Assembly: GCA_030655315.1 (NCBI GenBank)
Contig: JAURVT010000047.1
Location: 1 to 35,251 of the forward strand
Reading direction: 5' to 3'
DNA: 35,251 bases
Source of the DNA: Nocardioidaceae bacterium
GTDB taxonomy: Bacteria > Actinomycetota > Actinomycetes > Propionibacteriales > Nocardioidaceae
Shown: in pieces, positions 8,604 to 34,478 of the stretch
Position numbering within the stretch: position 1 is the stretch's first letter
Layout of the letters: the number at the start of each line of letters is the position of its first letter
The notes under the pieces: model-generated
Seen by the model: only the letters and a program-made list of their open reading frames with translations
The model's database searches: none
What the model was told of the DNA's origin: nothing
Made by a program: the position numbers and the translations under genes

Positions 8604-11325
<2,722 letters not shown>

Positions 11326-13534: not shown

Positions 13535-13562
13535 GCGTGGTCGGTCGCGGCCCGGCACGTCC

Positions 13563-18805: not shown

Positions 18806-18821
18806 CCGACCGATCGGTCGG
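18806..18821. promoter_or_regulatory. TetR-type palindrome between paaK and paaA
   Basis: CCGACCGATCGGTCGG is a perfect 16-bp palindrome in the 129-bp gap between the divergent paaK and paaABCDE starts. ACCG...CGGT cores of this type are typical operators of TetR regulators, and TetR-type PaaR proteins repress paa genes in other actinobacteria. The adjacent TetR gene (16774-17388) is the likely binder, with phenylacetyl-CoA as expected inducer; both are inferred. Confidence 0.7.
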
Positions 18822-18847
18822 TTGAGAAGAGTGCGGAGGACGGCGCG

Positions 18848-20073: not shown

Positions 20074-20090
20074 CGCGCCGGAGACCCGCC

Positions 20091-21005
20091 ATGGACCACG
20101 ACAACGCCTACGACGGCCTGGTCGAGACCCAGGACGACGCCCGGTGGGCGTTCGGCACCGGGTTCGACGACCCGCTGGCCGGCGTCGACACCACCGTGCC
20201 GACCGGCGTCGACGGCGCCGCGCTCGCCGCGTACTGCCTGATGCTCGGCGACGACGCGCTGGTGTCCGCGCAGCGCCTCGCGCAGTGGAGCACCCGCGCG
20301 CCCGAGCTGGAGGAGGAGGTCGCGCTCGCCAACATCGGGCTCGACCTCCTCGGCCAGGCCCGGCTGCTGCTGGCCCGCGCCGCGGCGGCCGACCCGTCGG
20401 TGGTCCCACCGCTCCCCGAGGGGTCGCCGGTGCCGTCCGAGGACGCGCTCGCGTTCTTCCGCGACGCGCCGGCGTTCCGCCCCGTGCACCTCACCCAGGT
20501 CCCGAACGGCGACTTCGCGGTGACGGTCGTGCGGCTGACCGTCCTGTCGACCTGGCGCCTGGAGGTGCTGCGGGCACTGACCGCGTCGCGCGACCCGGTG
20601 CTGGCCGCCGTCGCCGAGAAGGGCGTCAAGGAGCTGAGCTACCACCGCGACTACGCCGCGCGCTGGTGCGTCACGCTCGCGCAGGGCACGGCTGTCTCCC
20701 GGTCGAGGCTCGTGGGCGCGCTGGGCGTCGTCTGGCCCTACCTGGCCGAGCTCTCGCGCGTGCACCCCGTCGAGCGCTCGCTGGTCGAGGTCGGCGTCGC
20801 CGCCGACCCGTCGGCCGCCTGGCTCGTCGCGTCGGCGTTCCTCGACCAGGTGCTGGCCGCGGGCGACCTCGAGCCTCCCGGGACGCGGTCCGTCGGCACG
20901 ATGGGCGGCCGCGCCGGACGCGACGGCGCGCACACCGAGTGGCTGGGCCCGCTGCTCGACGAGATGCAGGTGGTCGCTCGCGCCCACCCGATGGGCCGCT
21001 GGTGA
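20091..21005 (+). CDS. paaC: Phenylacetyl-CoA 1,2-epoxidase subunit PaaC
   Basis: The 304-residue structural subunit PaaC pairs with PaaA and has the same ferritin-like fold without a working metal site. Recognisable blocks are YCLMLGDDALVSAQRLAQWSTRAPELEEEVALANIGLDLLGQAR, LPNGDFAVTVVR-like text and KELSYHRDYAARW. The ATG follows a 17-bp gap after paaB, with CCGGAGA upstream. Its stop overlaps the GTG of paaD. Length and motifs fit the family well. Confidence 0.94.
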   Translation: MDHDNAYDGLVETQDDARWAFGTGFDDPLAGVDTTVPTGVDGAALAAYCLMLGDDALVSAQRLAQWSTRAPELEEEVALANIGLDLLGQARLLLARAAAADPSVVPPLPEGSPVPSEDALAFFRDAPAFRPVHLTQVPNGDFAVTVVRLTVLSTWRLEVLRALTASRDPVLAAVAEKGVKELSYHRDYAARWCVTLAQGTAVSRSRLVGALGVVWPYLAELSRVHPVERSLVEVGVAADPSAAWLVASAFLDQVLAAGDLEPPGTRSVGTMGGRAGRDGAHTEWLGPLLDEMQVVARAHPMGRW

Positions 21006-21484
21006 GTGCGCGCGACGTCGCGGCCGCCGTCACCGACCCCGAGCTGCCGATGCTGACGCTCGAGGACCTCGGGGTGCTGCGCGACGTCACCGAGCACGAC
21101 GGACGCGTCGTCGTGACGATCACCCCCACCTACACCGGCTGTCCGGCGATGGCCACCATGCGGGCCGACCTCGAGGTGGCGCTCCGTCGCGCCGGCCACC
21201 TCGACGTGGTGGTCCGGACCAGTCTGAGCCCGGCCTGGACCACCGACTGGATCACCGAGCGCGGGCGACGCGCCCTGGCCGAACACGGCATCGCCCCGCC
21301 CCGGCACGACGCCCGTCCCGCCCCCGTCGACCTCGTCCTGCTCGCGCCGCGGCCCGCGCTCGCCTGCCCCCTCTGCGGGTCCGACGACACCCGCGAGCTG
21401 TCCCGCTTCGGCACGACGGCCTGTCGGTCGCTCCAGGTGTGCCGCGCGTGCGGCGAGACCTTCGACCACCTCAAGGAGATCTGA
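21002..21484 (+). CDS. paaD: Epoxidase maturation factor PaaD
   Basis: This 160-residue protein has an N-terminal MIP18/DUF59 domain (about 1-95, DPELPMLTLEDLGVLRDV, TYTGCPAM) and a C-terminal zinc ribbon (CPLCGSDDT...CRACGETFDH). PaaD is needed for phenylacetate epoxidase activity and is thought to help assemble metal or Fe-S centres, probably the PaaE cluster or the PaaA di-iron site. GTG 21002 overlaps the paaC stop as GTGA. The paaE start follows directly after its stop. Confidence 0.92.
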   Translation: MSARDVAAAVTDPELPMLTLEDLGVLRDVTEHDGRVVVTITPTYTGCPAMATMRADLEVALRRAGHLDVVVRTSLSPAWTTDWITERGRRALAEHGIAPPRHDARPAPVDLVLLAPRPALACPLCGSDDTRELSRFGTTACRSLQVCRACGETFDHLKEI

Positions 21485-22543
21485 GTGCCGCCGCGCTTCG
21501 ACGTGCTCACGGTCAGCCGGGTCGAGTCGCTGTGCGACGACGCCGCGGCGGTCACCTTCGCCGTGCCGCCCGAGCTCGCCGCCACCTACGCGTTCGGTCC
21601 CGGCCAGTCGCTGACCCTGCGCCGCGAGGTCGACGGGCGCGAGGAGCGTCGCTCGTACTCGATCTGCGCGCCCGTCGGTGCCGCGCCGCGCGTCGGCGTG
21701 CGGGTCGTCCCCGACGGCGTGTTCTCGACCTGGCTGGTCCACGACGTGCGCCCCGGCGACGAGGTCGAGGTCCAGGCACCGAGCGGGTCGTTCACGCTCG
21801 ACCCCGCGACCGGGGGGCGTCACGTGCTGGTCGCCGCCGGATCGGGCATCACGCCGATGATGTCGATCGCGTCGTCGCTGCTGGACGGCTCCGACGCCCA
21901 CGTCACCCTGCTCTACGGCAACCGCCGCACCACCAGCGTGATGTTCACCGAGGAGCTGGCCGACCTCAAGGACCGGCACGGGCCACGCTTCGACCTCGTG
22001 CACGTGCTGTCGCGCGAGCCCCGCGAGGTCGAGCTGTTCAGCGGACGCCTCGACGCCGACCGGATCGAGCGGATCCTGCGTGCCCTCGTGCCGGTGGACG
22101 ACGTCGACGGCTTCTGGCTCTGCGGGCCGCTCGAGATGGTGGAGTCGGCACGCGAGCTGCTCCTGCGCCTCGGCGTCGACCGCGACCGCGTCCATGCCGA
22201 GCTCTTCCACGCCGGCGACGTCCCCCCGCCACCGGTCGTCCGCCCCGAGGGCGCCCCCGAGGGCCCGACCAGCACGGTCACCGTGACGCTCGACGGACGC
22301 TCGTCCGAGCTGGTCCTCGCCCGTGACCGTCCGCTGCTCGACTCCGCGCAGGCCTCGCGCCCGGACCTGCCCTTCGCCTGCCGGGGCGGGGTGTGCGGCA
22401 CCTGCCGGGCCCAGGTCACCGTCGGCGAGGTCGACATGCGGCGCAACTACGCGCTCGAGGACCGCGAGGTCGAGGCCGGGTTCGTCCTCACGTGCCAGTC
22501 CTACCCCGTCAGCGACGTGCTCGTCGTCGACTACGACTGCTGA
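21485..22543 (+). CDS. paaE: Phenylacetyl-CoA epoxidase reductase PaaE
   Basis: This 352-residue reductase passes electrons from NAD(P)H via FAD and a 2Fe-2S centre to the PaaAC oxygenase. It has a FAD domain (about 1-105, RRSYSIC), a nucleotide-binding domain (VAAGSGITPMMSIA, LLYGNRR, FWLCGPLEMV) and a C-terminal plant-type ferredoxin domain with CRGGVCGTC and a distal Cys in VLTCQSYP. The GTG start abuts the paaD stop. Its 3' end overlaps the convergent P450 gene by 13 bp, so paaABCDE ends here. Later pathway genes (paaFGZ and others) are not in the window. Confidence 0.95.
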   Translation: MPPRFDVLTVSRVESLCDDAAAVTFAVPPELAATYAFGPGQSLTLRREVDGREERRSYSICAPVGAAPRVGVRVVPDGVFSTWLVHDVRPGDEVEVQAPSGSFTLDPATGGRHVLVAAGSGITPMMSIASSLLDGSDAHVTLLYGNRRTTSVMFTEELADLKDRHGPRFDLVHVLSREPREVELFSGRLDADRIERILRALVPVDDVDGFWLCGPLEMVESARELLLRLGVDRDRVHAELFHAGDVPPPPVVRPEGAPEGPTSTVTVTLDGRSSELVLARDRPLLDSAQASRPDLPFACRGGVCGTCRAQVTVGEVDMRRNYALEDREVEAGFVLTCQSYPVSDVLVVDYDC

Positions 22544-23862
22544 GCCGGCGCGCCCTCGGGACGCAGGCGCGCCGGGAGGTGCTCCCATCCGCGCAGGATC
22601 CGGGTCGGCCGGCGCCGCGCGCCGGGCAGCAGCTGCACGTCGGGGAACCGGTCGAACAGGGTGCGCAGCCCCACCTCGCCCTCCATCCGCGCCAGCGCCG
22701 CCCCGAGGCAGTAGTGCCGACCGGAGGAGAACGCCAGGTGGTCGCGCGCGTTGGGTCGCGCGACGTCGAAGCGCAGCGGGTCGTCGAACACGGCCGGGTC
22801 GCGGTTGGCCCCGGCGAGCAGGGCCACGACCTGGGCGCCGGACGGCACGTCGACACCGGCCAGCCGCGTGTCGCGGGCGGCCATCCGGCCCGTGAGCAGC
22901 ACCGGCGGGTCGACGCGCAGCACCTCGTCGACGGCGTTGGTCCACCCGGCCGGGTCGGCCCGGAGCGCCTCGCGCTGCTCGGGGTGGCGGGCGAGGAGCG
23001 TGATGCCGTTGCCCAGGAGGTTGACGGTGGTCTCGAAGCCGGCCGCGAGCACCAGGCCCGCCGTCGACCTGAGCTCGCGCTCGTCGAGCACGCCGTCCTC
23101 GTCGCTGGCCGCGAGCAGCCGGCTGAACAGGTCGTCGCCCGGCTGACGACGGAGCCGGGCGAAGTGCCGCTCGAGCCAGGCGTCGAAGTCCCGCAGTCCC
23201 TGGTCGACCACGCGGAAGGTGGCACGGTCGAGCCCGAGGTCGAGGCTGGGCGCGGCCATCGCGCCGTAGCGCAGGACGGCGTCGTGCTCGTCCGCCGGCA
23301 CCCCCAGGATCTCGGCGATCACGGTCACCGGCAGTGCGCTGCAGTAGGCCTGGACGAGGTCGACCGGCGAGTCCGGGTCGAGGGCGTCGAGCAGCCCGTC
23401 GGCGATCTCCTGGGTGCGCGCCCGGAGGTCCTCGATCGCGCGGGCGGTGAACACCCGGGTGACGAGCTTGCGGTAGCGGGTGTGGTCCGGCGGCTCGGTG
23501 ACGAGCATGGACGGAGCGCGCAGGGGGTGCAGCAGGTCGCGGTTGGCCCACCGGGACACGCGCTCGAGCAGCCCGCTCGCCTGCGTGGGGTCGCCGGTGC
23601 GGAAGTCGGCGTGCGACAGCACCTCCTTGACCACGGCGTGGTCGGCGCTCAGCAGCGACAGCCGGGTGCGGGGCAGCGGGCCGAGCGCCCGGACCTCCTC
23701 GATCAGCCCCGACACGTCCCCACCGCCGGTGCCCTGCATGATGAGCCGGCCCTGGAGGTCGCCGCGGGCCGCGAGCGACCGCACGGCGAGCCGCGGGATG
23801 CCGTGGCCCACGCCCCAGGCGACGGTGCCCCGCGTCCGTCGTGTCACTGCTGCCAGCACCAT
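22531..23862 (-). CDS. Cytochrome P450
   Basis: This 443-residue soluble P450 keeps all core signatures: the I-helix oxygen-activation motif AGFETT (274-279), ExxR (E313-R316, EVLR) and the haem loop FSSGRHYCLG with ligand C385. Bacterial class I P450s need a ferredoxin and reductase, neither of which is adjacent (PaaE is dedicated to the epoxidase). The substrate cannot be told from sequence. The ATG at 23862 has GGGAGGAG upstream. It is divergent from a TetR gene across an 18-bp palindrome, so it is probably induced by its own substrate. It overlaps paaE tail to tail by 13 bp. Confidence 0.93.
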   Translation of the reverse strand: MVLAAVTRRTRGTVAWGVGHGIPRLAVRSLAARGDLQGRLIMQGTGGGDVSGLIEEVRALGPLPRTRLSLLSADHAVVKEVLSHADFRTGDPTQASGLLERVSRWANRDLLHPLRAPSMLVTEPPDHTRYRKLVTRVFTARAIEDLRARTQEIADGLLDALDPDSPVDLVQAYCSALPVTVIAEILGVPADEHDAVLRYGAMAAPSLDLGLDRATFRVVDQGLRDFDAWLERHFARLRRQPGDDLFSRLLAASDEDGVLDERELRSTAGLVLAAGFETTVNLLGNGITLLARHPEQREALRADPAGWTNAVDEVLRVDPPVLLTGRMAARDTRLAGVDVPSGAQVVALLAGANRDPAVFDDPLRFDVARPNARDHLAFSSGRHYCLGAALARMEGEVGLRTLFDRFPDVQLLPGARRRPTRILRGWEHLPARLRPEGAPAQQS

Positions 23863-23881
23863 GGCTCCTCCCGAGCGGTGG

Positions 23882-23899
23882 TGGTACGTTCGCGTACCA
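23882..23899. promoter_or_regulatory. TetR-type operator between P450 and tetR
   Basis: TGGTACGTTCGCGTACCA is an 18-bp inverted repeat (7-bp arms TGGTACG/CGTACCA). It lies 20-37 bp upstream of the P450 start and 64 bp upstream of the divergent TetR start. A further half-site GGTACG occurs at 23912-23917. It probably binds the adjacent TetR. Confidence 0.65.
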
Positions 23900-23962
23900 T
23901 CGTGGCTCGACGGTACGTCCCCCGCCGCGTCGCGGCAAGACCGCCCTGCCCCGGAGGTGCCC

Positions 23963-24562
23963 GTGAGCGCTGTGGAGTCCACCGGCGACGGTCCGCGGCA
24001 CCGGCTGCTCGACGCGATGGCCACGGTGCTCCGCGCGGGGTCGTACGACGACGCCACCGTCGCCGAGGTGGTGCGCGTCGCCCGGGTGTCGCGGCGCACG
24101 TTCTACGAGCACTTCGCCGACCGGCATGCCTGCCTCGAGGCGCTCCTCGAGCAGACCAACACCCAGATCATGGCCGCGGTCGCGGCGGCGGTCGACCCCG
24201 GCGAGGAGTGGCGCGTGCAGGTGGGCCAGGCGGTCGACGCGTGGGTGGCCTGCATCCGTCGCGACCCGGCCGTCACGCTGAGCTGGATCCGGATCGTCCC
24301 CGCGCTCGGGGAGCGGGGACGCCGGTTCGACCGCCGCACGCGCGGTCGGTACGCCGAGATGATCCAGTCCCTCGTCGACCGGCCCGAGGTGCGCGCCCGG
24401 GGCGTCGAGCCGCTGCCGGACCCCGTGGCCACCCTGCTGATCGGTGGCCTGCGCGAGCTCGTCGCCACCACGGTCGAGGACGGCGGCGACCTCGACGTCG
24501 TCGCGCAGGTCGCGTCCGCCACGTTCGTGCGCGTGCTCTCGCCGTCCCGGGACGCGTCCTAG
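23963..24562 (+). CDS. TetR family regulator of the P450
   Basis: This 199-residue protein has the TetR DNA-binding domain at about 12-58 (GPRHRLLDAMATVLRAGSYDDATVAEVVRVARVSRRTFYEHFADRHACL) and a helical effector domain. GTG 23963 is chosen for the GGAGG five bases upstream; GTG 23957 is a minor alternative. It is divergent from the P450 gene with an 18-bp palindrome between, which makes that gene its likely target. The flavin oxidoreductase gene starts 9 bp after its stop and may belong to the same transcript. Confidence 0.88.
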   Translation: MSAVESTGDGPRHRLLDAMATVLRAGSYDDATVAEVVRVARVSRRTFYEHFADRHACLEALLEQTNTQIMAAVAAAVDPGEEWRVQVGQAVDAWVACIRRDPAVTLSWIRIVPALGERGRRFDRRTRGRYAEMIQSLVDRPEVRARGVEPLPDPVATLLIGGLRELVATTVEDGGDLDVVAQVASATFVRVLSPSRDAS

Positions 24563-24571
24563 GCTGGCAGC

Positions 24572-25591
24572 GTGCCCGACGCCTCCCGCCCGCTCCGCAG
24601 CCTCGGCTTCCTCACCATCGGCGTCTTCGACGCGGACGACCCCGGCCCCGGGCACGAGTCGACGCTGCGCGTGATCGAGCTCGGCGAGCAGCTGGGCTTC
24701 GACAGCGCGTGGGTGCGCCACCGGCACCTGCAGCACGGCATCTCCTCCCCGGTCGCGATCCTGGCCGCCGCGACGCAGCGCACGAGCCGGATCGCGCTGG
24801 GCACGGCGGTGATCCCGCTCGGCTGGGAGAACCCGCTGCGGCTGGCCGAGGACCTCGCGACCGTCGACCTGCTGTCGGGCGGGCGGCTCAACCCGGGCCT
24901 GAGCGTCGGCCCGCCGATGCGGTGGGACGACGTCAAGGAGGCGCTGTACCCCGACACCGCCGATGCCGAGGACTTCTCCTACGAGCGGGTCGAGCGGCTG
25001 CTGCGCATGGTGCGCGGCGAGGCGGTCAGCCCGTTCTCCGGCACGGTGGGCATCGAGCAGTTCTCCGACCGCGTCCAGCCGCACGCGGCCGGTCTCGCCG
25101 AGCGGCTCTGGTACGGCGGCGCGAGCCTCCGCTCGGCCCAGTGGGCCGGCGAGCACGCCATGAGCTTCCTGACCAGCAGCGTGGTCAAGGCCGAGGAGTC
25201 CGAGGACTTCGCCGAGATCCAGCGCTCGCACGTGCGCCGGTTCCGCGAGCACCACCCGCTCGGCGACGCCGCCCGGGTGTCGCAGGGCCTCGTCGTGGTC
25301 CCCACCGACACCGCCACCCCCGAGCAGCGGGCGAGGTACGAGGCCTACGCGGAGTCCCGGCTCGCCCGGACCCGCACCCCGCAGGGCCCCGCGCGGATGA
25401 TGTTCGCGCCCGACCTCGTCGGCACCTCCGAGCAGATCGCCGAGACGCTGCACGCGCACGCCGGCTTCCGCGAGGTCGACGAGGTCGCGTTCGCGCTCCC
25501 GTTCTCCTTCGAGCACGACGACTACGTGCAGATCCTCACCGACATCGCGACCCGGCTCGGCCCGGCCCTGGGCTGGAGCCCCGCGCCCTGA
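24572..25591 (+). CDS. LLM class flavin-dependent oxidoreductase
   Basis: This 339-residue protein fits the luciferase-like monooxygenase family: a single TIM barrel that binds FMN or F420. Visible family features are LGFLTIGVF near the N-terminus, LGEQLGFDSAWVRHRHLQHGISSPVAILAAATQRTSRIALGTAVIPLGWENPLRLAEDLATVDLLSGGR, and the LVGTSEQIAETL region near the C-terminus. The cofactor and substrate are not evident. It starts 9 bp after the TetR gene on the same strand, with only a weak ribosome-binding site, which suggests co-transcription. Together with the P450 it may form a small oxidative module. Confidence 0.85.
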   Translation: MPDASRPLRSLGFLTIGVFDADDPGPGHESTLRVIELGEQLGFDSAWVRHRHLQHGISSPVAILAAATQRTSRIALGTAVIPLGWENPLRLAEDLATVDLLSGGRLNPGLSVGPPMRWDDVKEALYPDTADAEDFSYERVERLLRMVRGEAVSPFSGTVGIEQFSDRVQPHAAGLAERLWYGGASLRSAQWAGEHAMSFLTSSVVKAEESEDFAEIQRSHVRRFREHHPLGDAARVSQGLVVVPTDTATPEQRARYEAYAESRLARTRTPQGPARMMFAPDLVGTSEQIAETLHAHAGFREVDEVAFALPFSFEHDDYVQILTDIATRLGPALGWSPAP

Positions 25592-25643: not shown

Positions 25644-25734
25644 ATCTGCGACAGAGGCTGGTGTCAGCGACGTCCACCACGGGCGTGTTCGGACCGACCG
25701 TGACCCCGTCGCCCGTCGACCAGCAGGAGTGCAG

Positions 25735-27234
25735 ATGCGCACAGTCAAGGGTCCCACCGACCACGTGGTCGTCGTCGGCGCCGGGCTCGGGGGGCTCTCC
25801 GCCGCCCTGCGCCTGGCCGGCGCCGGACGCGAGGTCACGGTGATCGAGCGCGAGGCCGAGCCGGGCGGGCGCGCGGGCGTCGTCCGCGCCGACGGCTACA
25901 CCTTCGACACCGGTCCGACGGTCCTGACGATGCCCGACCTGATCGCCGACGCCTTCGACTGCGTCGGCGAGGACATGGCCGACTGGCTCGACCTCGAGCC
26001 CGTGGCGCCGCTGTACCGCGCGACCTACGCCGACGGGTCGCGCCTGGACGTGCACGCCGACCCCGAGCAGATGGCGCAGGAGGTGGCCGAGGTCTGCGGG
26101 CCCGACGAGGCTCAGGGCTACCGCGACTTCGTCGACTTCGTGTCCAAGGTCTACCGCTACGAGATGCGCGACTTCATCGACACCAACATGGACAGCCCAC
26201 TGTCGGTGCTGGGTCCCAACCTCGCCCGGCTCGCCGCGATCGGCGGGTTCCGCAAGATGGCCCCCAAGGTGGCGCAGTACCTCAAGGACGAGCGGCTGCA
26301 GAAGGTCTACAGCTTCCAGGCCATGTACGCCGGGCTGTCGCCGTACGACGCCCTCGCGATCTACAGCGTGATCGCCTACATGGACTCCGTCGCCGGCGTC
26401 TTCTTCGCCAAGGGCGGGATGAACGCCGTCCCGCGCGCGCTCGCGGGCGCCGCCGAGAAGCACGGCGTCACCTTCCGCTACGACACCACCGTCGACCGGG
26501 TGGAGCTGCAGGGTCGGCGCGCCGTCGCCGTCCACACCGCCGACGGCGAGCGGATCGCGTGCGACGCCGTCGTCCTCAACCCCGACCTCCCGGTGGCCTG
26601 GCGCGACCTGCTCGGACGGACGCCGCGGCGCGTCAAGCGGTTGACCTACTCGCCGTCGTGCTTCCTGATGCTGGCCGGCTCCACCGCCGACTACTCCCCC
26701 GGCGCGCTGCACAACATCTCGTTCGGGCACTCCTGGGAGGGCGTCTTCGACGAGCTGATCGACCAGCGCACCGTGATGTCCGACCCGTCGCTCCTCGTGA
26801 CGGTGCCGACCCACATGGACCCCTCGCTCGCCCCGCCGGGCCGGCACAGCTACTACGTGCTGTTCCCCACGCCCAACCTCGACGCCGACATCGACTGGGA
26901 CGAGTTCGGCCCCCGCTACCGCGACCAGGTGGTCCGGACGCTGGAGTCGCGTGGCTACCCCGGGTTCGGCGACGCGATCGAGGTCGAGCACGTGACGACG
27001 CCGCTCGACTGGGAGCGCCAGGGCATGGAGCGCGGCGCGCCGTTCGCCTCGGCCCACTCCTTCGGCCAGACCGGCCCGTTCCGCCCGCGCAACATCTGGG
27101 GCGACAACGTGGTCTTCACCGGCTCGGGCACCACGCCCGGCGTCGGCGTGCCGATGGTGCTGATCTCGGGCCGCCTGGCGGCCGAGCGGATCACCGGCCC
27201 GCAAGCGTCCTACCGCTCGCGGACGTGGGCATGA
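25735..27234 (+). CDS. crtI: Phytoene desaturase CrtI
   Basis: This 499-residue FAD enzyme desaturates phytoene stepwise to lycopene. The dinucleotide-binding motif VVVVGAGLGGLSAALRLAGAG is followed by VIEREAEPGGRAG and the substrate-domain text GYTFDTGPTVLTMPDL. The C-terminal carotenoid-desaturase block is TGSGTTPGVGVPMVLISGRLAAERI. The ATG at 25735 has AGGAG five bases upstream. It is followed by crtB with an ATGA overlap, so crtI-crtB are one operon. CrtI differs from the second desaturase-like protein (32328-33812), which is probably CrtD. Confidence 0.93.
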   Translation: MRTVKGPTDHVVVVGAGLGGLSAALRLAGAGREVTVIEREAEPGGRAGVVRADGYTFDTGPTVLTMPDLIADAFDCVGEDMADWLDLEPVAPLYRATYADGSRLDVHADPEQMAQEVAEVCGPDEAQGYRDFVDFVSKVYRYEMRDFIDTNMDSPLSVLGPNLARLAAIGGFRKMAPKVAQYLKDERLQKVYSFQAMYAGLSPYDALAIYSVIAYMDSVAGVFFAKGGMNAVPRALAGAAEKHGVTFRYDTTVDRVELQGRRAVAVHTADGERIACDAVVLNPDLPVAWRDLLGRTPRRVKRLTYSPSCFLMLAGSTADYSPGALHNISFGHSWEGVFDELIDQRTVMSDPSLLVTVPTHMDPSLAPPGRHSYYVLFPTPNLDADIDWDEFGPRYRDQVVRTLESRGYPGFGDAIEVEHVTTPLDWERQGMERGAPFASAHSFGQTGPFRPRNIWGDNVVFTGSGTTPGVGVPMVLISGRLAAERITGPQASYRSRTWA

Positions 27235-28187
27235 GCACCCGCGAGCTCGACGCCGCGGGCATCGTCGACCCGGCGCTGCGCCGGTCCTACGAGGCCTGCC
27301 GGCGCCTCAACGCCGAGCACGGCCGCACCTACTACCTCGCGACGCTGCTGCTGCCGCCGCACAAGCGGCCGCACGTGCACGCCCTCTACGGCTTCGCCCG
27401 CTACGCCGACGACTTCGTCGACTCGCTCGAGGCGCCTGACCCCGACCGCCTCGTCAGCTGGGGGGCGGAGTTCCTCGACGCCATCAGCGGCGGCGTGTCG
27501 TCCGACCCGGTCGCGGCCGCGGCCGGCCACACGATGGAGCGCTACGACATCCCGGTGGCGTACACCGAGGCGTTCCTCGCCTCGATGCGTCAGGACATCA
27601 CCGTCGACCGCTACGACACCTACGAGGACCTGCGCGGCTACATGTACGGCTCGGCCGCCGTCATCGGCCTGCAGATGACGTCCGTCCTCGGTGTCCTGAC
27701 GCCCGAGGCGTTCCCCCGGGCGCGCGCGCTGGGCGAGGCGTTCCAGCTGACCAACTTCATCCGCGACGTCGCCGAGGACCTCGAGCGCGGCCGGGTCTAC
27801 CTGCCGATGGAGGACCTCGACGCGTTCGGCGTCACCGTCGGCGACCTGCGGCCGGGGACGGTCTCGGACGGCGTCCGGGCCCTCGTCCGGCACGAGGTCG
27901 CCCGCGCCCAGGAGCTGTACGTGGAGGCCGAGCCCGGCATCGAGATGCTGGAGCCGACGAGCCGGGACTGCGTCCGCACCGCGTTCACGCTGTACCGCGG
28001 CATCCTCGACGAGGTCGAGCGCGCCGACCACGACGTGCTCAACCAGCGGGTGGCCGTGTCGCTGCCCCGTCGTCTGAGGACGGCGCTGCCGCGGCTCGCC
28101 GCTGCGCGACGAGCCCGCCGGCGGGAGGGGCCTCGCGCTCGACGCCGCGGCGGCCCCAGAACACCCACCACACCATGGACTGCGTGA
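27231..28187 (+). CDS. crtB: Phytoene synthase CrtB
   Basis: The 318-residue enzyme condenses two GGPP molecules to phytoene. The two Asp-rich metal-binding motifs are YADDFVDS (D60, D61, D64) and FIRDVAEDLERGRVYLP. The usual ending (VLNQRVAVSLPRRLRTALPRL) is followed by a basic tail of about 30 residues rich in Arg and Pro. The ATG overlaps the crtI stop as ATGA. The last 149 bp lie on top of the 3' end of crtYd on the other strand, including the conserved end, which is unusual. No GGPP synthase gene is present in the window. Confidence 0.92.
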   Translation: MSTRELDAAGIVDPALRRSYEACRRLNAEHGRTYYLATLLLPPHKRPHVHALYGFARYADDFVDSLEAPDPDRLVSWGAEFLDAISGGVSSDPVAAAAGHTMERYDIPVAYTEAFLASMRQDITVDRYDTYEDLRGYMYGSAAVIGLQMTSVLGVLTPEAFPRARALGEAFQLTNFIRDVAEDLERGRVYLPMEDLDAFGVTVGDLRPGTVSDGVRALVRHEVARAQELYVEAEPGIEMLEPTSRDCVRTAFTLYRGILDEVERADHDVLNQRVAVSLPRRLRTALPRLAAARRARRREGPRARRRGGPRTPTTPWTA

Positions 28188-28434
28188 CGATCGCGTAGCC
28201 GAACAGGAAGTCCTCGACGGGGGCGTGGCCGATGCGCCAGCCCAGGATCGCGTCGGGGTCGTACCGGAACACCCCGCGCGACGTCAGCCACTCGTTGGTG
28301 AGCAGCTGGAAGAACAGCACGATCGCGTACGACACCCAGTACGCGCGGGTCGTCAGGAGCCGGGTGCGCAGCACCCACAGGTCGAGCACCACCGTCACCG
28401 CGACGGCGACCAGCGAGACCTCCGTGTGCGTCAC
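28039..28434 (-). CDS. crtYd: Lycopene cyclase domain subunit CrtYd
   Basis: This 131-residue membrane protein is one half of the actinobacterial heterodimeric lycopene cyclase. It has about three transmembrane segments and the conserved NEWLTSRGVFRYDPDAILGWRIGHAPVEDFLFGYAIV and SMVWWVFWGRR blocks, including the P-x-E-[ED] motif (PVED) required in this family. A Pro/Ala-rich tail of about 30 residues follows. The GTG at 28434 overlaps the crtYc stop as GTGA, so the subunits are co-expressed. Its last 49 codons are antisense to the end of crtB. Paralogues acting on C50 carotenoids (CrtYe/Yf) look similar, so beta versus epsilon ring is not certain. Confidence 0.88.
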   Translation of the reverse strand: MTHTEVSLVAVAVTVVLDLWVLRTRLLTTRAYWVSYAIVLFFQLLTNEWLTSRGVFRYDPDAILGWRIGHAPVEDFLFGYAIVTQSMVWWVFWGRRGVEREAPPAGGLVAQRRAAAAPSSDDGAATRPPAG

Positions 28435-28766
28435 CGGTGCTCCTCCCCGCGGACCGGCCAGCCGCGGACCCGTCGCACGGCCTCCAGCGAGAGCACCGAC
28501 GCGACCGGCACGACCACGAAGAACAGCGCCTCCTCGAGCGGGAGGTCGCCCGGCAGCACGATGCCGAGCGTCTGGGTGAGGTCGAACGACCAGTGGCCGG
28601 CGTGGATCGCGAGCACGTCCCACAGGACGAAGACGGGCGCCACGCACAGCAGCGTGAGACCCGTCCGCCGCCAGCGCGCGTAGACGCGGGTGCCGAGGAG
28701 CAGCTCGAGCGGCAGCGTCGCCACGACGACGAACACCAGCATCCCGGCGTAGACCCAAGCGCGCAT
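28431..28766 (-). CDS. crtYc: Lycopene cyclase domain subunit CrtYc
   Basis: This 111-residue, three-helix membrane protein is the other half of the cyclase. VFVLWDVLAIHAGHWSFDLTQTLGIVLPGDLPLEEALFFVVVP carries the conserved WD, HAGHW and PLEE features of CrtYc. CrtYc and CrtYd together convert psi ends of lycopene to cyclic ends. ATG 28766 is preceded by GGGCGG only, a weak ribosome-binding site. It is divergent from the yihY-led operon, 83 bp apart, so this gap probably holds both promoters. Confidence 0.88.
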   Translation of the reverse strand: MRAWVYAGMLVFVVVATLPLELLLGTRVYARWRRTGLTLLCVAPVFVLWDVLAIHAGHWSFDLTQTLGIVLPGDLPLEEALFFVVVPVASVLSLEAVRRVRGWPVRGEEHR

Positions 28767-28849: not shown

Positions 28850-29725
28850 ATGACGGCCACCGACGCGACGCCCCACGGCGCGCCCGTGGAGCGCGTCGTC
28901 CAGGAGGGCGTGGCGGTCGTCCGCGGCACCGGGGCCGTGCTCGCCGGACGCGACGTGGCCCGTGCCGCCGCCGCGCTCACCTACTTCGGGGCGATTTCCG
29001 TGGTGCCCTGGCTGCTACTGGCCCTGTGGTCCACGAGCTGGACGGTCGGCGCCGACGCCGCCGAGGTGCGCCTGCTCGCGCTCGCCCCGCTCGTCCCGGG
29101 GCAGATGGGCGCCCGTCCCGCGTTCGAGACGCTGGTGCACGCGGGCACCCACCTGGGCTGGCTCGGCGCCCTCGTCACCGTCCTGCCCGCCTCGTTCTGG
29201 GGCGAGGGCGTGCGTCGGGCCTGCCTGTCGCTGGTGCCCCGCGAGGACTCGTGGACGGGCTGGCGCGCCCGCGCCTGGCTCCTGCCGGTGCTCGTCGTCG
29301 TCCCCGCCCTGACCTGGGTGCTGGTCGGGCTGTCCGACGGCCCGCTGCTCGACCTCGCCCGTCAGGACGGCTTCTGGCCGCTCGTCTTCCGGGTGCTGAT
29401 CGGGTTCACCGCCCTGTGGCTGACGCTCAGCGTCCCGCTCGCCTGGGTGTTCCGCCACGTCGCCCCGCGCGACGCGAGCTGGACCGCGGTCTGGGCCGGC
29501 TCGCTCGGCACCGCCGCGTTCCTGGCCGGGTTCCTCCACGGCTTCCTGCTGTTCCTCTCCATCCCGGTCGACGTCGGCGTCCCGTTCGGCGGGCTCGGCG
29601 TGGTCGGCGGCGTCGTCTCCGTCGGGTTCTGGCTCTATCTGCTGCACACCGTGCTGCTCGTCGGCTGGGTGGCGACGACGGTGCTGGACCGTCGCCTGCG
29701 AGCGTCGCGCCCGGGACCCGCCTGA
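28850..29725 (+). CDS. YihY/BrkB family membrane protein in the carotenoid operon
   Basis: This 291-residue integral membrane protein has about six transmembrane helices and the features of the YihY/BrkB family (RAAAALTYFGAISVVPWLLLALW near the start; VPLAWVFRHVAPRDASWTAVWAGSLGTAAFLAGFLHGFLLFLS later). The function of the family is not settled. The next gene (crtA-like) starts in its stop codon (TGATG), so it is the first gene of a carotenoid-tailoring operon and not a bystander. A role in moving or organising the carotenoid or its glycoside in the membrane is plausible, but inferred only from position. Confidence 0.83.
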   Translation: MTATDATPHGAPVERVVQEGVAVVRGTGAVLAGRDVARAAAALTYFGAISVVPWLLLALWSTSWTVGADAAEVRLLALAPLVPGQMGARPAFETLVHAGTHLGWLGALVTVLPASFWGEGVRRACLSLVPREDSWTGWRARAWLLPVLVVVPALTWVLVGLSDGPLLDLARQDGFWPLVFRVLIGFTALWLTLSVPLAWVFRHVAPRDASWTAVWAGSLGTAAFLAGFLHGFLLFLSIPVDVGVPFGGLGVVGGVVSVGFWLYLLHTVLLVGWVATTVLDRRLRASRPGPA

Positions 29726-30414
29726 TGGGCGACGGCGGCTCGGTCGCCGTCCTGCACCTGTGGGGCGTCGACCGCGTCCGGACGGCCCTGCGCCACATGG
29801 CCACCGACCGCCGAGGGCTGCGTGGGGTGCCCGGGCTCCGGTTCGCCAAGCTGCTCGGCACCGGGTCGGGCGAGACGTTCACCGTCCGCGACGCCGACCC
29901 GCACCACTGGGCGCTCCTCACCGTCTGGGACGACCCCGCCGACGCCGAGCGCTTCGACGCGGGCCCGCTGGTCGGCGGCTGGGACGGCTTCGCGCACGAG
30001 CGGCTCCGGGTCACCCTGCGTCCGCTCGTCGCCCGCGGCACGTGGGCCGGACGCACCCCGTTCGAGGTCGTCGCTCCTCCCACCACCGACGGACCCGTCG
30101 CCGCGATCACGCGCGCCCGGCTCCGTCCCTCCCGTGCCCTGACCTTCTGGAGGGCCGTCCCCCCGGTCTCGGCCGACCTGGTCGGCTCCTGCGGGCTCCG
30201 CCTGACGGTGGGCGTCGGCGAGGCGCCGGTGGGCCTGCAGGGCACCTTCAGCCTGTGGGACTCCGCGGACGACCTGCGCGCCTTCGCCTACCGCAGCGCC
30301 CCGCACCTCGAGGCGATCCGCCGCACCGCCGAGGTCGACTGGTACGCCGAGGAGCTCTTCGCCCGGTTCGCCGTGCTCGACGCCGTCGGCACCTATCGCG
30401 GACGCACGCCGTGA
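29725..30414 (+). CDS. CrtA-like (spheroidene monooxygenase family) carotenoid oxygenase
   Basis: This 229-residue protein matches the CrtA family: GLRFAKLLGTGSGETFTVRDADPHHWALLTVWDD, and the ending AYRSAPHLEAIRRTAEVDWYAEELFARFAVLDAVGTYRGRTP. Bacterial CrtA oxidises the C-2 end of acyclic carotenoids to hydroxy or keto forms with haem and oxygen. Here it is in an operon with CruF, CruG and a second desaturase, so it probably hydroxylates or ketolates the acyclic end near C-2'. The ATG overlaps the yihY stop by one base, and its own stop overlaps cruF as GTGA. Confidence 0.8.
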   Translation: MGDGGSVAVLHLWGVDRVRTALRHMATDRRGLRGVPGLRFAKLLGTGSGETFTVRDADPHHWALLTVWDDPADAERFDAGPLVGGWDGFAHERLRVTLRPLVARGTWAGRTPFEVVAPPTTDGPVAAITRARLRPSRALTFWRAVPPVSADLVGSCGLRLTVGVGEAPVGLQGTFSLWDSADDLRAFAYRSAPHLEAIRRTAEVDWYAEELFARFAVLDAVGTYRGRTP

Positions 30415-31193
30415 CCGCCGTCGACGTCCGTCCGTCGAGGTGGACCCGCGGCGCCGCCGCGGCCTGGGTGCTCGCGGGCGCCGGCGTGCTCGTGCAGATG
30501 AGCTTCCCGTTCTCCGGTGGCGGCGACGCGGTGCTGGCCGTGGTGGTCGTGCTGCTCCTGGCCGGCGCCGCCCTGGCCCACGCGGCGTCGGCGCGCGGCG
30601 CGCGCTCAGTGGTCGCGCTGCTGCTGGTGGCCGGGGGCGGCGGTCTCCTGGTCGAGGCGGTCGGCGTCGCCACCGGCTACCCCTTCGGCGGCTACGACTA
30701 CGCCCGCTCCCTGGGCGCCTCGGTGCTCGGCGTCCCGCTCGTGGTGCCACTGGCCTGGGTGATGATCGCCTACCCGTGCCTGCTCGCGGCCCGGCGGCTC
30801 ACCGGCGGCCGCGCCGTCCCCACGGTCCTCGTCGCGGCCTGGACGATGACCACCTGGGACGTCTTCCTCGACCCCCAGATGGTCGACGCCGGCCACTGGG
30901 CCTGGCGGACGCCGACCCCCGCGCTGCCCGGCGTCGAGGGCATCCCGCTCACCAACTACGCCGGCTGGCTCGTCGTGTCGCTGGTGATGTGCGCCCTGCT
31001 GCAGGCGCTGCTGCCCGCCCCGCGCGGCACCGACGCGCTCCCCCACGCCCTCCTGCTCTGGACCTTCGCCTCGTCGGTGCTCGCCAACGCGGTCTTCTTC
31101 GGACGTCCGCCGGTCGCGCTCGTCGGCGGCCTGCTGATGGGCCTCGTGGCGGTGCCGCTGGCGGTCGTCCTGTGGCGCGGGCGTCGCCGGTGA
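30411..31193 (+). CDS. cruF: Carotenoid 1,2-hydratase CruF
   Basis: This 260-residue membrane protein with about seven helices fits the CruF (DUF422) family, which adds water to the C-1',2' double bond of monocyclic carotenoids. Characteristic text is EAVGVATGYPFGGYDYARSLGASVLGVPLVVPLAWVMIAYPC, MTTWDVFLDPQMVDAGHWAWRTP and GIPLTNYAGWLVVSLVM. GTG 30411 overlaps the crtA-like stop (GTGA), and the stop overlaps the cruG start (GTGA). CruF is known from Deinococcus, cyanobacteria and some actinobacteria; with CruG it makes myxol-type glycosides. Confidence 0.87.
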   Translation: MTAVDVRPSRWTRGAAAAWVLAGAGVLVQMSFPFSGGGDAVLAVVVVLLLAGAALAHAASARGARSVVALLLVAGGGGLLVEAVGVATGYPFGGYDYARSLGASVLGVPLVVPLAWVMIAYPCLLAARRLTGGRAVPTVLVAAWTMTTWDVFLDPQMVDAGHWAWRTPTPALPGVEGIPLTNYAGWLVVSLVMCALLQALLPAPRGTDALPHALLLWTFASSVLANAVFFGRPPVALVGGLLMGLVAVPLAVVLWRGRRR

Positions 31194-32314
31194 GGGCCGG
31201 GGACGCCGTCGTCGCCGCCGGCACCGCGATCGCGGTCGCCGGACTCGCGCTCACCGTCGACAACCTGCGCCGGCTGCGGGTGCCGTCCCCCCGTCCCCCC
31301 GTGCCCGTCGACGCGGTCTCGGTGCTGCTGCCCGTCCGCGACGAGGAGCGCGACGTCGACGCGTGCCTGCACGCGGTGCTCGCCGCCGCCGATGCCTGCG
31401 GACCCGACGTGGAGGTGCTCGTCCTCGACGACGGGTCGCGCGACCGCACCGCCGACGTGGTCCGCGAGGTCGCCGGTGACGACAGGCGGGTACGGCTGCT
31501 CGACGGCAGACCGCCCCCGCACGGCTGGCTCGGCAAGCCCTGGGCGTGCCGACAGCTCTCGGAGGCGGCCCACCCGCGCTCGACGATCCTCGTGTGGGTC
31601 GACGCCGACGTGGTGCTCGAGCCGCACGCGCTCGCCGCGACCGTCGACCTGCTGCGCGACGCGCGCCTCGACCTCGTCAGCCCCTACCCGCGCCAGCTGG
31701 CCGGCACCTGGGCCGAGCGGCTCGTCCAGCCGCTGCTGCAGTGGTCGTGGGCCAGCACCCTGCCGCTCGGGATCGCGGAGCGCTCGTCGCGGCCGTCGCT
31801 CGGCGCCGCCAACGGGCAGCTGCTCGCCGTCGACCGTCGCACCTACGACCGTGCGGGCGGCCACGCGGCGGTGCGCGGCGAGGTGCTCGACGACCTCGCC
31901 CTGCTGCGCGCGGTCAAGGCGGCCGGCGGCCGGGGCACCGTCGCCGACGGCACCCACCTCGCCACCTGCCGGATGTACCGCGGGGCGGCCGAGGTGCGCG
32001 CGGGGTACGCCAAGTCGCTCTGGGCGGCCTTCGGGTCGCCGGCCGGCGCGACCGCCGTGGTCGCGCTGCTGGTGCTGGCCCACGTGATCCCGCCGCTGGC
32101 GGCGCTGCGCGGCTCGCGCGTCGGGCTCGCCGGCTACGGCGCCTCGGTGGCGTCGCGCGCCCTGGTGGCCCGCCGCACCGGGTCCCCCCCGGCCGACGCG
32201 CTCGCCCACCCGCTCTCCGTCGTCGCCCTGGCCGCGCTCACCGTCGACTCGTGGCGCGGTCGACGGGCGGGTCGGCTGACCTGGAAGGGCCGCCCGGTCG
32301 TGGGGTCGCGATGA
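31190..32314 (+). CDS. cruG: Carotenoid glycosyltransferase CruG
   Basis: This 374-residue family 2 glycosyltransferase has the nucleotide-sugar motif VLVLDDGSRDRT, the DxD-type VWVDADVVLEP and the acceptor-side GEVLDDLALLRAVK, then about two to three C-terminal membrane helices. Its ending AHPLSVVALAALTVDSWRGRRAGRLTWKGRPV is typical of CruG. It should attach a sugar to the hydroxyl made by CruF or the CrtA-like enzyme, at the membrane. GTG 31190 overlaps the cruF stop. After its stop a six-codon reading frame relays to crtD. Confidence 0.87.
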   Translation: MRAGDAVVAAGTAIAVAGLALTVDNLRRLRVPSPRPPVPVDAVSVLLPVRDEERDVDACLHAVLAAADACGPDVEVLVLDDGSRDRTADVVREVAGDDRRVRLLDGRPPPHGWLGKPWACRQLSEAAHPRSTILVWVDADVVLEPHALAATVDLLRDARLDLVSPYPRQLAGTWAERLVQPLLQWSWASTLPLGIAERSSRPSLGAANGQLLAVDRRTYDRAGGHAAVRGEVLDDLALLRAVKAAGGRGTVADGTHLATCRMYRGAAEVRAGYAKSLWAAFGSPAGATAVVALLVLAHVIPPLAALRGSRVGLAGYGASVASRALVARRTGSPPADALAHPLSVVALAALTVDSWRGRRAGRLTWKGRPVVGSR

Positions 32315-32331
32315 CGGCGGCGTCGCGATGA
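32311..32331 (+). other. Six-codon minicistron between cruG and crtD
   Basis: ATG 32311 (ATGA with the cruG stop) starts MTAASR and stops at TGA 32329-32331, which overlaps the crtD ATG 32328 in a second ATGA. The repeat GTCGCGATGA (32305-32314 and 32322-32331) shows a short tandem duplication. It may keep ribosomes moving from cruG to crtD by termination-reinitiation; it could equally be chance. Confidence 0.3.
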
Positions 32332-33812
32332 GCCGCGTCGTCGTCGTGGGCGCGGGCCTCGGGGGCCTGGCCGCGGCGGCCCGCCTCGCGGCGGGCGGCC
32401 ACGACGTCACGGTGATCGAGCAGGCGGCCGAGGTCGGCGGCAAGCTCGGCACCTACGAGCGCGACGGCTTCCGCTTCGACACCGGCCCCTCGCTGGTCAC
32501 CATGCCGCACCTGCTGCGCGAGCTGTTCGACGACACCGGCGGTCCGCTCGACGACGTCCTCGCGCTGCGCCGGCTTGACGTGGCCTGCCGCTACACGTTC
32601 CCCGACGGGACGCTGCTCGACCTGCCCGGCGACGCGACCCGGGTCCCGGCCGCCCTCGACGCGGCCCTCGGATCCGGCGCGGGCGCGCAGTGGTCGGCGT
32701 TCCTGGACCGCGCCGAGCGGATCTGGGACGCGACGCACGAGCCGTTCCTGGAGTCGCCCATCACCCCGCGCGACATGCTGCGGTTGTCCGGTCGGGTCGG
32801 CGACCTCCTCGCGGTCGCCCCGTGGCGCAGCCTGCGCGGCCTCGGCGCCCGCTACCTGCGCGACCCCCGGCTGCGGATGCTGCTCGACCGGTACGCCACC
32901 TACACCGGCTCGGACCCGCGTCGTGCCCCCGCCGCCCTCGCGACGGTGCCGTGGGTGGAGCAGGCGCACGGCTCCTGGTACGTCGACGGCGGTCTGGTGC
33001 GGATCGCCGAGGCGGTGCGCGACCGGGCCGTCGAGCGGGGCGCGGTGGTCCGCACGTCGTGCGAGGTCGCCGAGGTGGTCGTCGAGGGCGGCCGTGCCCG
33101 CGGCGTGCGCCTGGTCGACGGGGAGCTGGTGCCGGCCGACGTGGTGGTCGCGAACGCCGACGCGTCCCAGGTCTACGGCCGACTCGTCCCCGGCTCCGGC
33201 GGCCCCGACCGCGCCCGCCTGCGTCGTGCCACCCCGTCGCTCTCGGGCTTCGTGCTCCTGCTCGCGCTCGACGACGCCGGCCCCGACCCGGTCCACCACC
33301 GGGTGCTGTTCGCCGAGGACTACGACGCCGAGTTCGACGCGGTGTTCGGCCTCGGCGGCCGGGCCCGTCCGGTGGACCGTCCCACCGTCTACGTCTCCGC
33401 ACCGGACGACCCGGCGCTCGTCCCGGCCCAGGGCGCCGCCGCGTGGTTCGTGCTCGTCAACGCCCCCCGTCACGACCCGGTGCACGGGACGGACTGGGAC
33501 GCCCCGGGGCTCGCGGCGTCGTACGCGGACCGGGTGCTCGCGGTGATGGCCGACCGTGGTCTGGACGTGCGCGCACAGGTGCGGTGGCGTCACGTGCTCA
33601 CTCCGGCGGACCTGGAGCGGGCGACGCTCACCCCGGGCGGCTCGATCTACGGCTCGTCGTCGAACGGCGCACGGTCGGCCTTCCTGCGTCCGCCCAACGC
33701 CTCGAGCGTGGACGGCCTGTTCCTGGTGGGCGGCTCCTCGCACCCTGGCGGGGGCCTACCCCTGGTGACCCTCTCGGCCCGCATCGTCGCCGACCTGGTC
33801 GGACCGGCCTGA
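32328..33812 (+). CDS. Carotenoid C-3',4' desaturase CrtD-like
   Basis: This 494-residue FAD-dependent protein of the CrtI superfamily begins VVVVGAGLGGLAAAARLAAGG, VIEQAAEVGGKLG and GFRFDTGPSLVTMPHLLREL, and ends LVGGSSHPGGGLPLVTLSARIVADL. The HPGGG-type ending and place beside cruF and cruG point to CrtD (1'-hydroxy-carotenoid 3',4'-desaturase), not phytoene desaturase, which is already supplied by crtI. CrtO-type ketolases are a less likely alternative. The ATG at 32328 has no ribosome-binding site and is coupled to the minicistron. Its last 57 bp overlap the convergent CDP-alcohol transferase gene. Confidence 0.82.
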   Translation: MSRVVVVGAGLGGLAAAARLAAGGHDVTVIEQAAEVGGKLGTYERDGFRFDTGPSLVTMPHLLRELFDDTGGPLDDVLALRRLDVACRYTFPDGTLLDLPGDATRVPAALDAALGSGAGAQWSAFLDRAERIWDATHEPFLESPITPRDMLRLSGRVGDLLAVAPWRSLRGLGARYLRDPRLRMLLDRYATYTGSDPRRAPAALATVPWVEQAHGSWYVDGGLVRIAEAVRDRAVERGAVVRTSCEVAEVVVEGGRARGVRLVDGELVPADVVVANADASQVYGRLVPGSGGPDRARLRRATPSLSGFVLLLALDDAGPDPVHHRVLFAEDYDAEFDAVFGLGGRARPVDRPTVYVSAPDDPALVPAQGAAAWFVLVNAPRHDPVHGTDWDAPGLAASYADRVLAVMADRGLDVRAQVRWRHVLTPADLERATLTPGGSIYGSSSNGARSAFLRPPNASSVDGLFLVGGSSHPGGGLPLVTLSARIVADLVGPA

Positions 33813-34478
33813 CAGCTGCCCGCGGACCTGCCAGGTGAGGTGGGCGAACCCGCCGACGGCGAGCGCCAGCCCCACGGCGGTGCCGGCGGTGGCGAGCCCC
33901 TCGACCGTCACCCAGCCGGGCAGGGGCAACAGCGCCGCGGCCCCGCACGCGAGGCAGACGGCGATGGTGACGATCACCCGCGACGGCCGCTCCCACACGG
34001 TCACGGCCCCCACCCCGCGCATCCCCGCGACCATCCCGGACGAGCGGACCGACTCGTGCAGCAGCGTCAGCGCCCCAAGCGCCACGCACAGCCAGCCGGG
34101 CGCCCCGAGCAGCCAGAGCGCACCCAGGAACAGCAGGTCGGACACCCGGTCGGCGAGCGGGTCGAGCACCCGCCCCCACGCGGACCCGGACCCGTCGGCC
34201 ACCGCCACCGCGCCGTCGACCCCGTCGACCACCGCGGCCAGCAGGGCCACCACCGCCGCGGCCAGCGGCCACCCGCCACCGACCCACGCCAGCAGCGGCA
34301 CCCCCGCCGACACCAGCATCCCCGCCAGCGTCACCACGTCCGGCGACACGTGCCGCCGCACCAGCGGCCGCGCGATCCACCGCACCATCGCCAACCAGCC
34401 AGACACCCACACGGACGCATGCGGATCGAGCCCTCCGTGCGCCTCGGACCACCCGGCGTCGTCGTGCTGGGAGCTCAC
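33756..34478 (-). CDS. CDP-alcohol phosphatidyltransferase family protein
   Basis: This 240-residue membrane protein with about six helices has the CDP-alcohol transferase motif D85xxD88-G89-xx-A92-V93-x8-G102-xxx-D106-xxx-D110. All four Asp and both Gly are present, but the usual Arg after Ala is Val, as I recall for a divergent actinobacterial subgroup. It probably transfers a phospho-alcohol from a CDP-lipid to an acceptor, but substrate is unknown. GTG 34478 is chosen for AGGTGG upstream and because the SEAHGGLDPHASVWVSGWL block fits the family's N-terminus. It lies 74 bp after the HNH gene and overlaps crtD's 3' end by 57 bp. Confidence 0.82.
   Translation of the reverse strand: MSSQHDDAGWSEAHGGLDPHASVWVSGWLAMVRWIARPLVRRHVSPDVVTLAGMLVSAGVPLLAWVGGGWPLAAAVVALLAAVVDGVDGAVAVADGSGSAWGRVLDPLADRVSDLLFLGALWLLGAPGWLCVALGALTLLHESVRSSGMVAGMRGVGAVTVWERPSRVIVTIAVCLACGAAALLPLPGWVTVEGLATAGTAVGLALAVGGFAHLTWQVRGQLSGRSDQVGDDAGREGHQG

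Follow-up and report, generated by a model that had tools for sequence, protein, structure and literature searches.

YihY and a CDP-alcohol phosphotransferase as recurrent neighbours of a carotenoid-tailoring operon in Nocardioidaceae and other actinomycetes

Why should a gene for a BrkB/YihY-family membrane protein stand at the head of a carotenoid-tailoring operon? The question is raised by a contig of a Nocardioidaceae bacterium (JAURVT010000047.1, designated C42), the whole of which, 35,251 bases of a 4.18-Mb genome, constitutes the window analysed here. Five co-directional genes on its forward strand (28850–33812), namely yihY (28850–29725), a crtA-like gene (29725–30414), cruF (30411–31193), a cruG-like gene (31190–32314) and a crtD-like gene (32328–33812), are joined by shared stretches of 1 bp (yihY/crtA-like), 4 bp (crtA-like/cruF) and 4 bp (cruF/cruG) and by a 13 bp gap between cruG and crtD. 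An earlier, sequence-only reading had given these five genes and junctions, all of which the open reading frames (ORFs) reproduced exactly, and had taken them for an operon; the common direction, the overlaps and the short gap uphold this claim, and on such a layout a single transcript from yihY to crtD is plausible. Neither a terminator-like hairpin on the forward strand nor a sigma-70-like promoter on either strand was found between positions 28000 and 34600. Absent from that reading is a CDP-alcohol phosphotransferase gene (hereafter CDPOH; 33756–34478, reverse strand), which is a wider unexpected partner than YihY. We read the locus as directing the synthesis of a monocyclic C40 carotenoid glycoside, with YihY as its accessory and CDPOH as part of the same cluster, and assign this reading as a whole a probability of about one half.

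YihY beside carotenoid genes

Conservation of the yihY linkage was followed in 294 genomes of the window's own family (f1) and in a class sample of 394 genomes. CrtA matches were present in 46 of the family genomes and were strong (E < 1e-70) in 21, including that of the window; the weak relatives in the other 25 (E 4.5e-11 to 8e-4) are excluded from the family cluster counts, and two loci of one genome (L003 and L049) were counted once. L003, from Marmoricola sp. Leaf446, contains all five genes from yihY to crtD as well as CDPOH. The other 20 strong-CrtA clusters were all fetched, and in 19 of them yihY lies immediately upstream of crtA, the complete order yihY-crtA-cruF-cruG-crtD recurring in 19 of these 20 genomes. 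All 19 relatives have a candidate crtA start that runs into the yihY stop with a 4 bp overlap. When the 294 family genomes were searched with a profile of YihY (E ≤ 1e-20), the gene was detected in 20, that of the window included, all within the set of 21 with strong CrtA. The ratio of non-synonymous to synonymous substitution rates (dN/dS) of yihY was 0.08–0.24 in seven pairs of relatives, compared with 0.07–0.30 for the other genes tested, and because the gene order recurs in 19 of 20 genomes and yihY shows these dN/dS values, its linkage is more than chance. A mere chance neighbourhood of yihY is ruled out by the 19 clusters and the 4 bp overlaps.

In the class sample the YihY clade (E ≤ 1e-20) was found in 37 genomes, six of them from f1; 26 of the 37 were inspected and 11 left out. 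Five loci of family f7 (L161–L164 and L189) carry yihY beside CDPOH, itself beside crtD-cruG (order cruG-crtD / CDPOH / yihY), and one locus of family f48 (L165) carries it beside CDPOH next to cruG-cruF (order cruF-cruG / CDPOH / yihY); the class CrtA search found no CrtA in these six genomes. In two further f7 loci (L159 and L160) yihY adjoins CDPOH and the 17 kb covered contain no carotenoid gene; a CruG homologue is encoded elsewhere in both genomes. A Modestobacter contig of only 5.7 kb (L004) showed no carotenoid genes alongside YihY. The recurrence in f7 and f48, together with the 19 family clusters and the dN/dS values, makes YihY a recurrent partner and not the accident of a single strain, as the earlier reading had left conceivable. 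In a phylogenetic tree, the f1 YihY proteins (support 100/99) and the cluster-linked ones of f7 and f48 (98/98) form separate supported clades, the forks between them being unresolved, which fits either separate recruitment or gene exchange. YihY might alternatively move nothing and serve to scaffold or stabilise the tailoring enzymes in the membrane, as its coupling to crtA by 4 bp in all 19 relatives could suggest; but yihY is not adjacent to crtA in f7 and f48, where no CrtA was found at all, and we consider this explanation rather improbable.

The YihY protein of the window belongs to this carotenoid-linked clade and scores above the cut-off of PF03631 (64.9 bits, cut-off 33.7) and below that of TIGR00765 (27.4 bits, cut-off 73.15). 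Five other BrkB-family genes of the same genome score 116–220 bits against the Pfam model versus 65 for the cluster protein, and a profile of the carotenoid-linked YihY proteins barely detects them (best 7.9 bits). A PDB profile sequence search returned no relative of YihY or of CrtA.

The CDP-alcohol phosphotransferase gene next to crtD

CDPOH (PF01066, 46.6 bits, cut-off 22; GTG start set from relatives) converges on crtD in the window, as it does in 17 of the other 20 fetched family clusters. Of the three exceptions, L050 begins at the end of its contig beside crtD, L039 ends short of a copy that lies some 3.3 kb downstream and L043 shows no copy over 3.6 kb. In the class sample, the CDPOH clade (E < 1e-35, a cut-off chosen post hoc at the gap between E 5e-37 and 8e-29) is present in 24 families and in 137 of the 394 genomes, 119 of which also carry CrtA (E ≤ 1e-15), while 24 genomes have CrtA without CDPOH; one CDPOH split across two frames (G474) was scored as absent. 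All 18 genomes with CDPOH and no CrtA were fetched, revealing a carotenoid cluster in 16 and only yihY beside CDPOH in two. The nearest carotenoid gene lies within 1.7 kb of CDPOH in 36 of 37 loci, 17 of which had been selected for CrtA, and at 3.1 kb in the remaining one (L142). Moreover, CDPOH is present in 36 of the 37 class genomes with the YihY clade, the exception being an 81% complete genome (G539), and the seven strong-CDPOH genomes of f7 are exactly its seven YihY genomes.

CDPOH is kept beside carotenoid genes in several arrangements. The main one outside the family reads crtD > < CDPOH < metF, crtE >, while genus g6 of the window's own family has crtD > < CDPOH < crtI < crtB, f7 has crtD > < CDPOH, yihY > and f14 has crtYd > < CDPOH, glycosyltransferase >. 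In two f14 loci (L181 and L182) CDPOH is placed between crtYd and the divergent glycosyltransferase gene, with no cruF or crtD match in 17 kb.

A PDB profile search with CDPOH gave phosphatidylinositol-phosphate synthases as top matches (E 1e-19), and the corresponding model NF045883 was hit at 52.8 bits, thus missing its cut-off of 170. The window protein and those of 26 loci were compared by HMMER alignment with the residues described in the available parts of PMC4634129 and PMC6506517. The four catalytic Asp, both Gly and the Ala of the motif D1xxD2GxxAR...GxxxD3xxxD4 are invariant in all 27 proteins, and its Arg is retained in two. The equivalents of R94 and R155 are likewise invariant, as are W10 and H14 near the CDPOH N-terminus; in place of S132 all 27 proteins have Glu, and at the residue that the alignment suggests as the counterpart of R195 they have Leu, Val or Phe. 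Since the last two positions are changed throughout, inositol-phosphate is less likely as the acceptor, a sugar or polyol without phosphate is plausible and, from the company of the gene, our guess would be the carotenoid glycoside.

CDPOH could be imagined to attach phosphatidyl, or a phospho-lipid group like it, to the sugar that the carotenoid carries, with YihY flipping the conjugate. Such an activity would fit the tie of the clade to carotenoid clusters in several arrangements, its presence in 36 of the 37 YihY-clade genomes, and the combination of invariant catalytic residues with a changed S132 and (inferred) R195 in the inositol-phosphate pocket; yet the counterparts of R94 and R155, two residues by which the synthase binds inositol-phosphate, are kept, and we know of no phosphatidyl-bearing carotenoid, so that we regard the proposal as a long shot. 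It is with the same small likelihood that many actinomycetes would make a phospholipid-linked carotenoid, in which the CruG-like enzyme adds the sugar, CDPOH places phosphatidyl on that sugar and YihY, in some families, flips the product to the outer leaflet; if true, this would constitute an unknown class of pigment lipid.

Pathway enzymes and predicted product

Upstream of yihY and on the same strand are crtI (25729–27234) and crtB (27231–28187), which overlap by 4 bp, and between these and yihY, on the opposite strand, are crtYd (28039–28434) and crtYc (28431–28766), the latter divergent from yihY. The phytoene desaturase gene crtI, for which the GTG first codon of the ORF was taken and whose start is uncertain, was assigned solely by its 85–86% identity to the crtI genes beside the sister clusters in L035–L037, whereas the phytoene synthase CrtB matches PF00494 (251 bits) and, in the Pfam and NCBIfam scans, CrtYc and CrtYd clear lycopene cyclase cut-offs (TIGR03462, 73 and 68.8 bits, cut-off 39.4). 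The tail-to-tail overlap of crtB and crtYd amounts to 149 bp (28039–28187).

Among the downstream proteins, the CrtA-like one, a probable C-2′ oxygenase, matches only DUF3291 in Pfam (20.2 bits, under the cut-off of 23.5) and spheroidene monooxygenase in NCBIfam (NF045923, 182.5 bits, cut-off 300), against which two class homologues score 163.8 and 188.6. The carotenoid 1′,2′-hydratase CruF meets PF04240 (128.2 bits, cut-off 25) and falls under TIGR03460 (126.4 bits, cut-off 154.7). The family 2 glycosyltransferase meets PF00535 (58.2 bits, cut-off 23.3) and is called CruG-like only, because it misses the CruG cut-off (NF045692, 116.6 bits, cut-off 600) and scores higher against HpnB (124.2 bits, cut-off 379, also missed). 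The 3′,4′-desaturase-like CrtD meets Amino_oxidase (102.4 bits, cut-off 19.8) and the crtI-family model TIGR02734 (335 bits, cut-off 238), with CrtD models top-scoring but under cut-off (NF045637, 369 bits, cut-off 580). These family scans support the earlier prediction that the locus encodes a pathway to a glycosylated monocyclic carotenoid with a tailored psi end.

The gene families and their conserved linkage are thus established, and an order of reactions can be inferred from characterised homologues. CrtB and CrtI, with a geranylgeranyl diphosphate (GGPP) synthase from another part of the genome, would supply lycopene, of which CrtYc/CrtYd would close one ring; at the open end, CruF would hydrate C-1′, CrtD would desaturate C-3′,4′ and the CrtA-like enzyme would oxygenate C-2′, most likely to a hydroxyl, and the CruG-like enzyme would add a sugar. 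The likeliest product, as predicted from the genes, is therefore a monocyclic carotenoid that is oxygenated at C-1′ and C-2′, 3′,4′-desaturated and glycosylated, that is, a C40 pigment of the phleixanthophyll/deoxymyxol-glycoside type. Two actinobacterial pigments, phleixanthophyll of mycobacteria and sioxanthin of Salinispora, are also monocyclic and glycosylated and bear oxygens at C-1′ and C-2′; sioxanthin has an aryl end.

According to the available text of PMC11855829, the functions of CruF, CrtD and CrtA-OH have been demonstrated in Nonlabens, the CrtA-OH homologue being a psi-end 2-hydroxylase of the myxol pathway, and crtA-OH together with crtY, cruF and crtD led to deoxymyxol in lycopene-producing E. 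coli. Another CrtA yields a ketone by two hydroxylations (PMC2889829, as far as the available part goes), which is why 2′-hydroxy and 2′-keto products cannot be told apart from sequence. A CrtA-like enzyme forming the ketone would give a 2′-keto end product instead of the 2′-hydroxy glycoside, as its relationship to spheroidene monooxygenase and the precedent just cited would allow; however, its score of 182.5 stays under the spheroidene monooxygenase cut-off of 300 and the CrtA-OH that is found next to cruF and crtD hydroxylates (PMC11855829, available text), making the ketone an outcome we think unlikely.

It had also been suggested that a gene set including CrtA may give an undescribed variant. 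This is countered by the demonstrated psi-end 2-hydroxylase and by the occurrence of CrtA homologues (E ≤ 1e-15) in 143 of the 394 class genomes. Outside the family, 40 CrtA loci were fetched from 137 CrtA-bearing genomes, some of them shortened by contig ends and two (L130 and L131) being weak CrtA matches without a cluster; 23 of the 40 have crtA, cruF, cruG and crtD in uninterrupted order with no other recognised gene between, three more (L111, L122 and L136) contain an inserted extra CrtI/CrtD-type gene, several others end at contig ends, and the order differs in f20 (L112 and L132) and in a Nonomuraea record (L148). As CrtA homologues and the same gene order recur so widely in the class, the CrtA-containing set is not novel; the pathway itself belongs to a known type, and the operon represents a family-wide variant of such a cluster.

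CrtA-like sequences were also encountered in other settings. Six family loci with weak CrtA matches were fetched (L055–L060), four of them without another carotenoid gene by tblastn; a short CrtD-like match in L057 and a short YihY-like match in L058 (28% identity) were not retained by profiles. L055 and L056, from two family genomes, hold a distant CrtA-like gene (31–32% identity) in a shared neighbourhood without carotenoid genes. A CrtA homologue annotated as hypothetical (48% identity; L147, 9887–10672) is located on a plasmid of Deinococcus taeanensis, where none of the genes annotated over 20 kb is a carotenoid gene. The CrtA-like matches that are split in two pieces (L112, L134, G409, G438, G629 and G648; in L134 the cruF- and crtD-like matches also) reflect either broken frames or errors in the sequence.

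Within the window, no gene could be recognised as a GGPP synthase. Two polyprenyl synthases are encoded on other contigs, one of them on C27 (L200, 4668–8641), where this crtE-like gene and metF are divergent neighbours, as are crtE and metF in many class loci. A 432-codon CrtD-like FAD frame (189 bits) adjoins metF on C27, and the three together may be a remnant of the crtD > < metF, crtE > arrangement seen in other actinomycetes. A search for a CrtEb-type UbiA prenyltransferase gene, as in C50 carotenoid pathways, showed three UbiA genes in the genome and none on the window contig.

The remainder of the window contains phenylacetate degradation-like genes (paaK, paaA-E; 17411–22543), named by eye from their translations, as well as genes for GGDEF/EAL proteins, a peroxidase-family protein, a HAMP/nucleotide cyclase protein and an MMPL transporter (3087–7817 and 9088–16013). 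Genes for a cytochrome P450, a TetR regulator and a luciferase-like monooxygenase (22531–25591) are situated between the paa-like and crt genes; membership of these three in the pathway is unsupported, with no matches to neighbour genes in the relatives' loci.

Possible roles of YihY and CDPOH and comparison with known systems

By gene company and distant analogy only, YihY may assist the glycosylated end product, either by carrying the carotenoid glycoside through the cell membrane or by fixing it in place there, and CDPOH, as a member of the cluster, probably has the glycoside as substrate or produces a lipid that partners it. Several results weigh against this reading. L046 (genome G272) has crtA-cruF-cruG-crtD without yihY, and a genome-wide YihY profile search gave no match in G272. 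The survey of yihY-crtA-cruF adjacency, positive in 19 of the 20 other family clusters, was negative outside the family, where none of the 40 CrtA loci carries yihY within the fetched stretches, some of which are shortened by contig ends; YihY is accordingly dispensable for such pigments in general, and its candidacy as a general crtA partner is rejected. In seven other families, all 12 inspected YihY-clade loci were unlinked to carotenoid genes, save for a 39-bit CrtD-like fragment in L172, which likewise rejects YihY as strictly carotenoid-linked. The association of YihY with CDPOH across the class is partly shared ancestry. The CrtA-, CruF-, CruG- and CrtD-like proteins all remain under their NCBIfam equivalog cut-offs, HpnB being the top match of CruG, and the AlphaFold models of YihY (three sequences) and CDPOH (two sequences) were poor, each with a mean pLDDT of 51.4. 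As clusters without YihY are common, YihY would be at most a helper in some lineages. As a side observation, crtYc is directly divergent from crtA in L046/G272, which offers a natural control strain.

The 12 unlinked YihY-clade loci would suit a more ordinary explanation, in which CDPOH makes a common phospholipid and is a mere neighbour of metF or of carotenoid genes, and YihY is a general envelope protein placed in the operon for co-expression. CDPOH follows metF in most arrangements outside the family, with overlapping metF-CDPOH frames in L183. However, in f1, f7, f48 and f14 CDPOH sits with carotenoid genes and no metF is present in the fetched stretches, 16 of the 18 genomes with CDPOH and no CrtA, all of which were inspected, have it in a carotenoid cluster, and in L107 and L116 crtD meets metF with no CDPOH intervening, so that metF does not need CDPOH. 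We consider this explanation possible, though doubtful. L107 and L116, as well as L127, where a full cluster lacks both CDPOH and yihY, also speak against a fixed role of CDPOH. The CrtA of L127 (G444, from f7) groups within the f1 proteins in a quick tree, and its cluster may possibly reflect a transfer without the two partners.

The main interest of the locus lies not in CrtA but in the recurring pair of lipid-type membrane proteins, YihY and CDPOH, which suggest that the pathway may end in a so far overlooked step of pigment modification or membrane placement. To our knowledge, little is known of the finishing and membrane placement of carotenoid glycosides, and a CDPOH clade beside carotenoid clusters in 24 families, with YihY in three, renders the question testable. 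The proposed roles would provide, if true, a BrkB/YihY cargo outside lipopolysaccharide (LPS)-bearing bacteria, the first that we are aware of, and possibly a new class of pigment lipid. In the openly licensed PMC literature, judged mostly by title, no description of a YihY/CDPOH pairing with carotenoid clusters was found; the combination of YihY and carotenoid gave nothing on topic there (PMC11205660, in its available part, is on another subject), nor, by title, did that of CDP-alcohol phosphatidyltransferase and carotenoid.

The closest characterised counterpart of the pathway is the myxol cluster of Nonlabens spongiae and Flavobacterium P99-3, which shares with the window cruF, crtD and a CrtA-type C-2′ oxygenase acting on the psi end of a monocyclic carotene (PMC11855829, available text). 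It differs in having crtY and crtZ where the window has crtYc/crtYd (crtZ was not searched for in the window), and the cruG-like, yihY and CDPOH genes of the window contrast with a myxol cluster for which the available text of the same source names no glycosyltransferase, YihY or CDPOH. With phosphatidylinositol-phosphate synthase (PDB 6h53, 6wm5 and 5d92), CDPOH has in common the family, the metal-binding Asp residues and the R94 and R155 equivalents, and departs from it in Glu at S132, Leu, Val or Phe at R195, a motif Arg kept in 2 of 27 proteins and the invariant W10 and H14. The window YihY belongs to the same Pfam family as E. coli YhjD (PF03631, 170.9 bits), which is reported to interact genetically and physically with parts of the LPS transport machinery and to bind rough LPS (PMC3219608, available part). 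Although the two are distant in sequence, the lipid concerned is different and transport by YihY is putative, such glycolipid handling fits a partner of a carotenoid glycoside.

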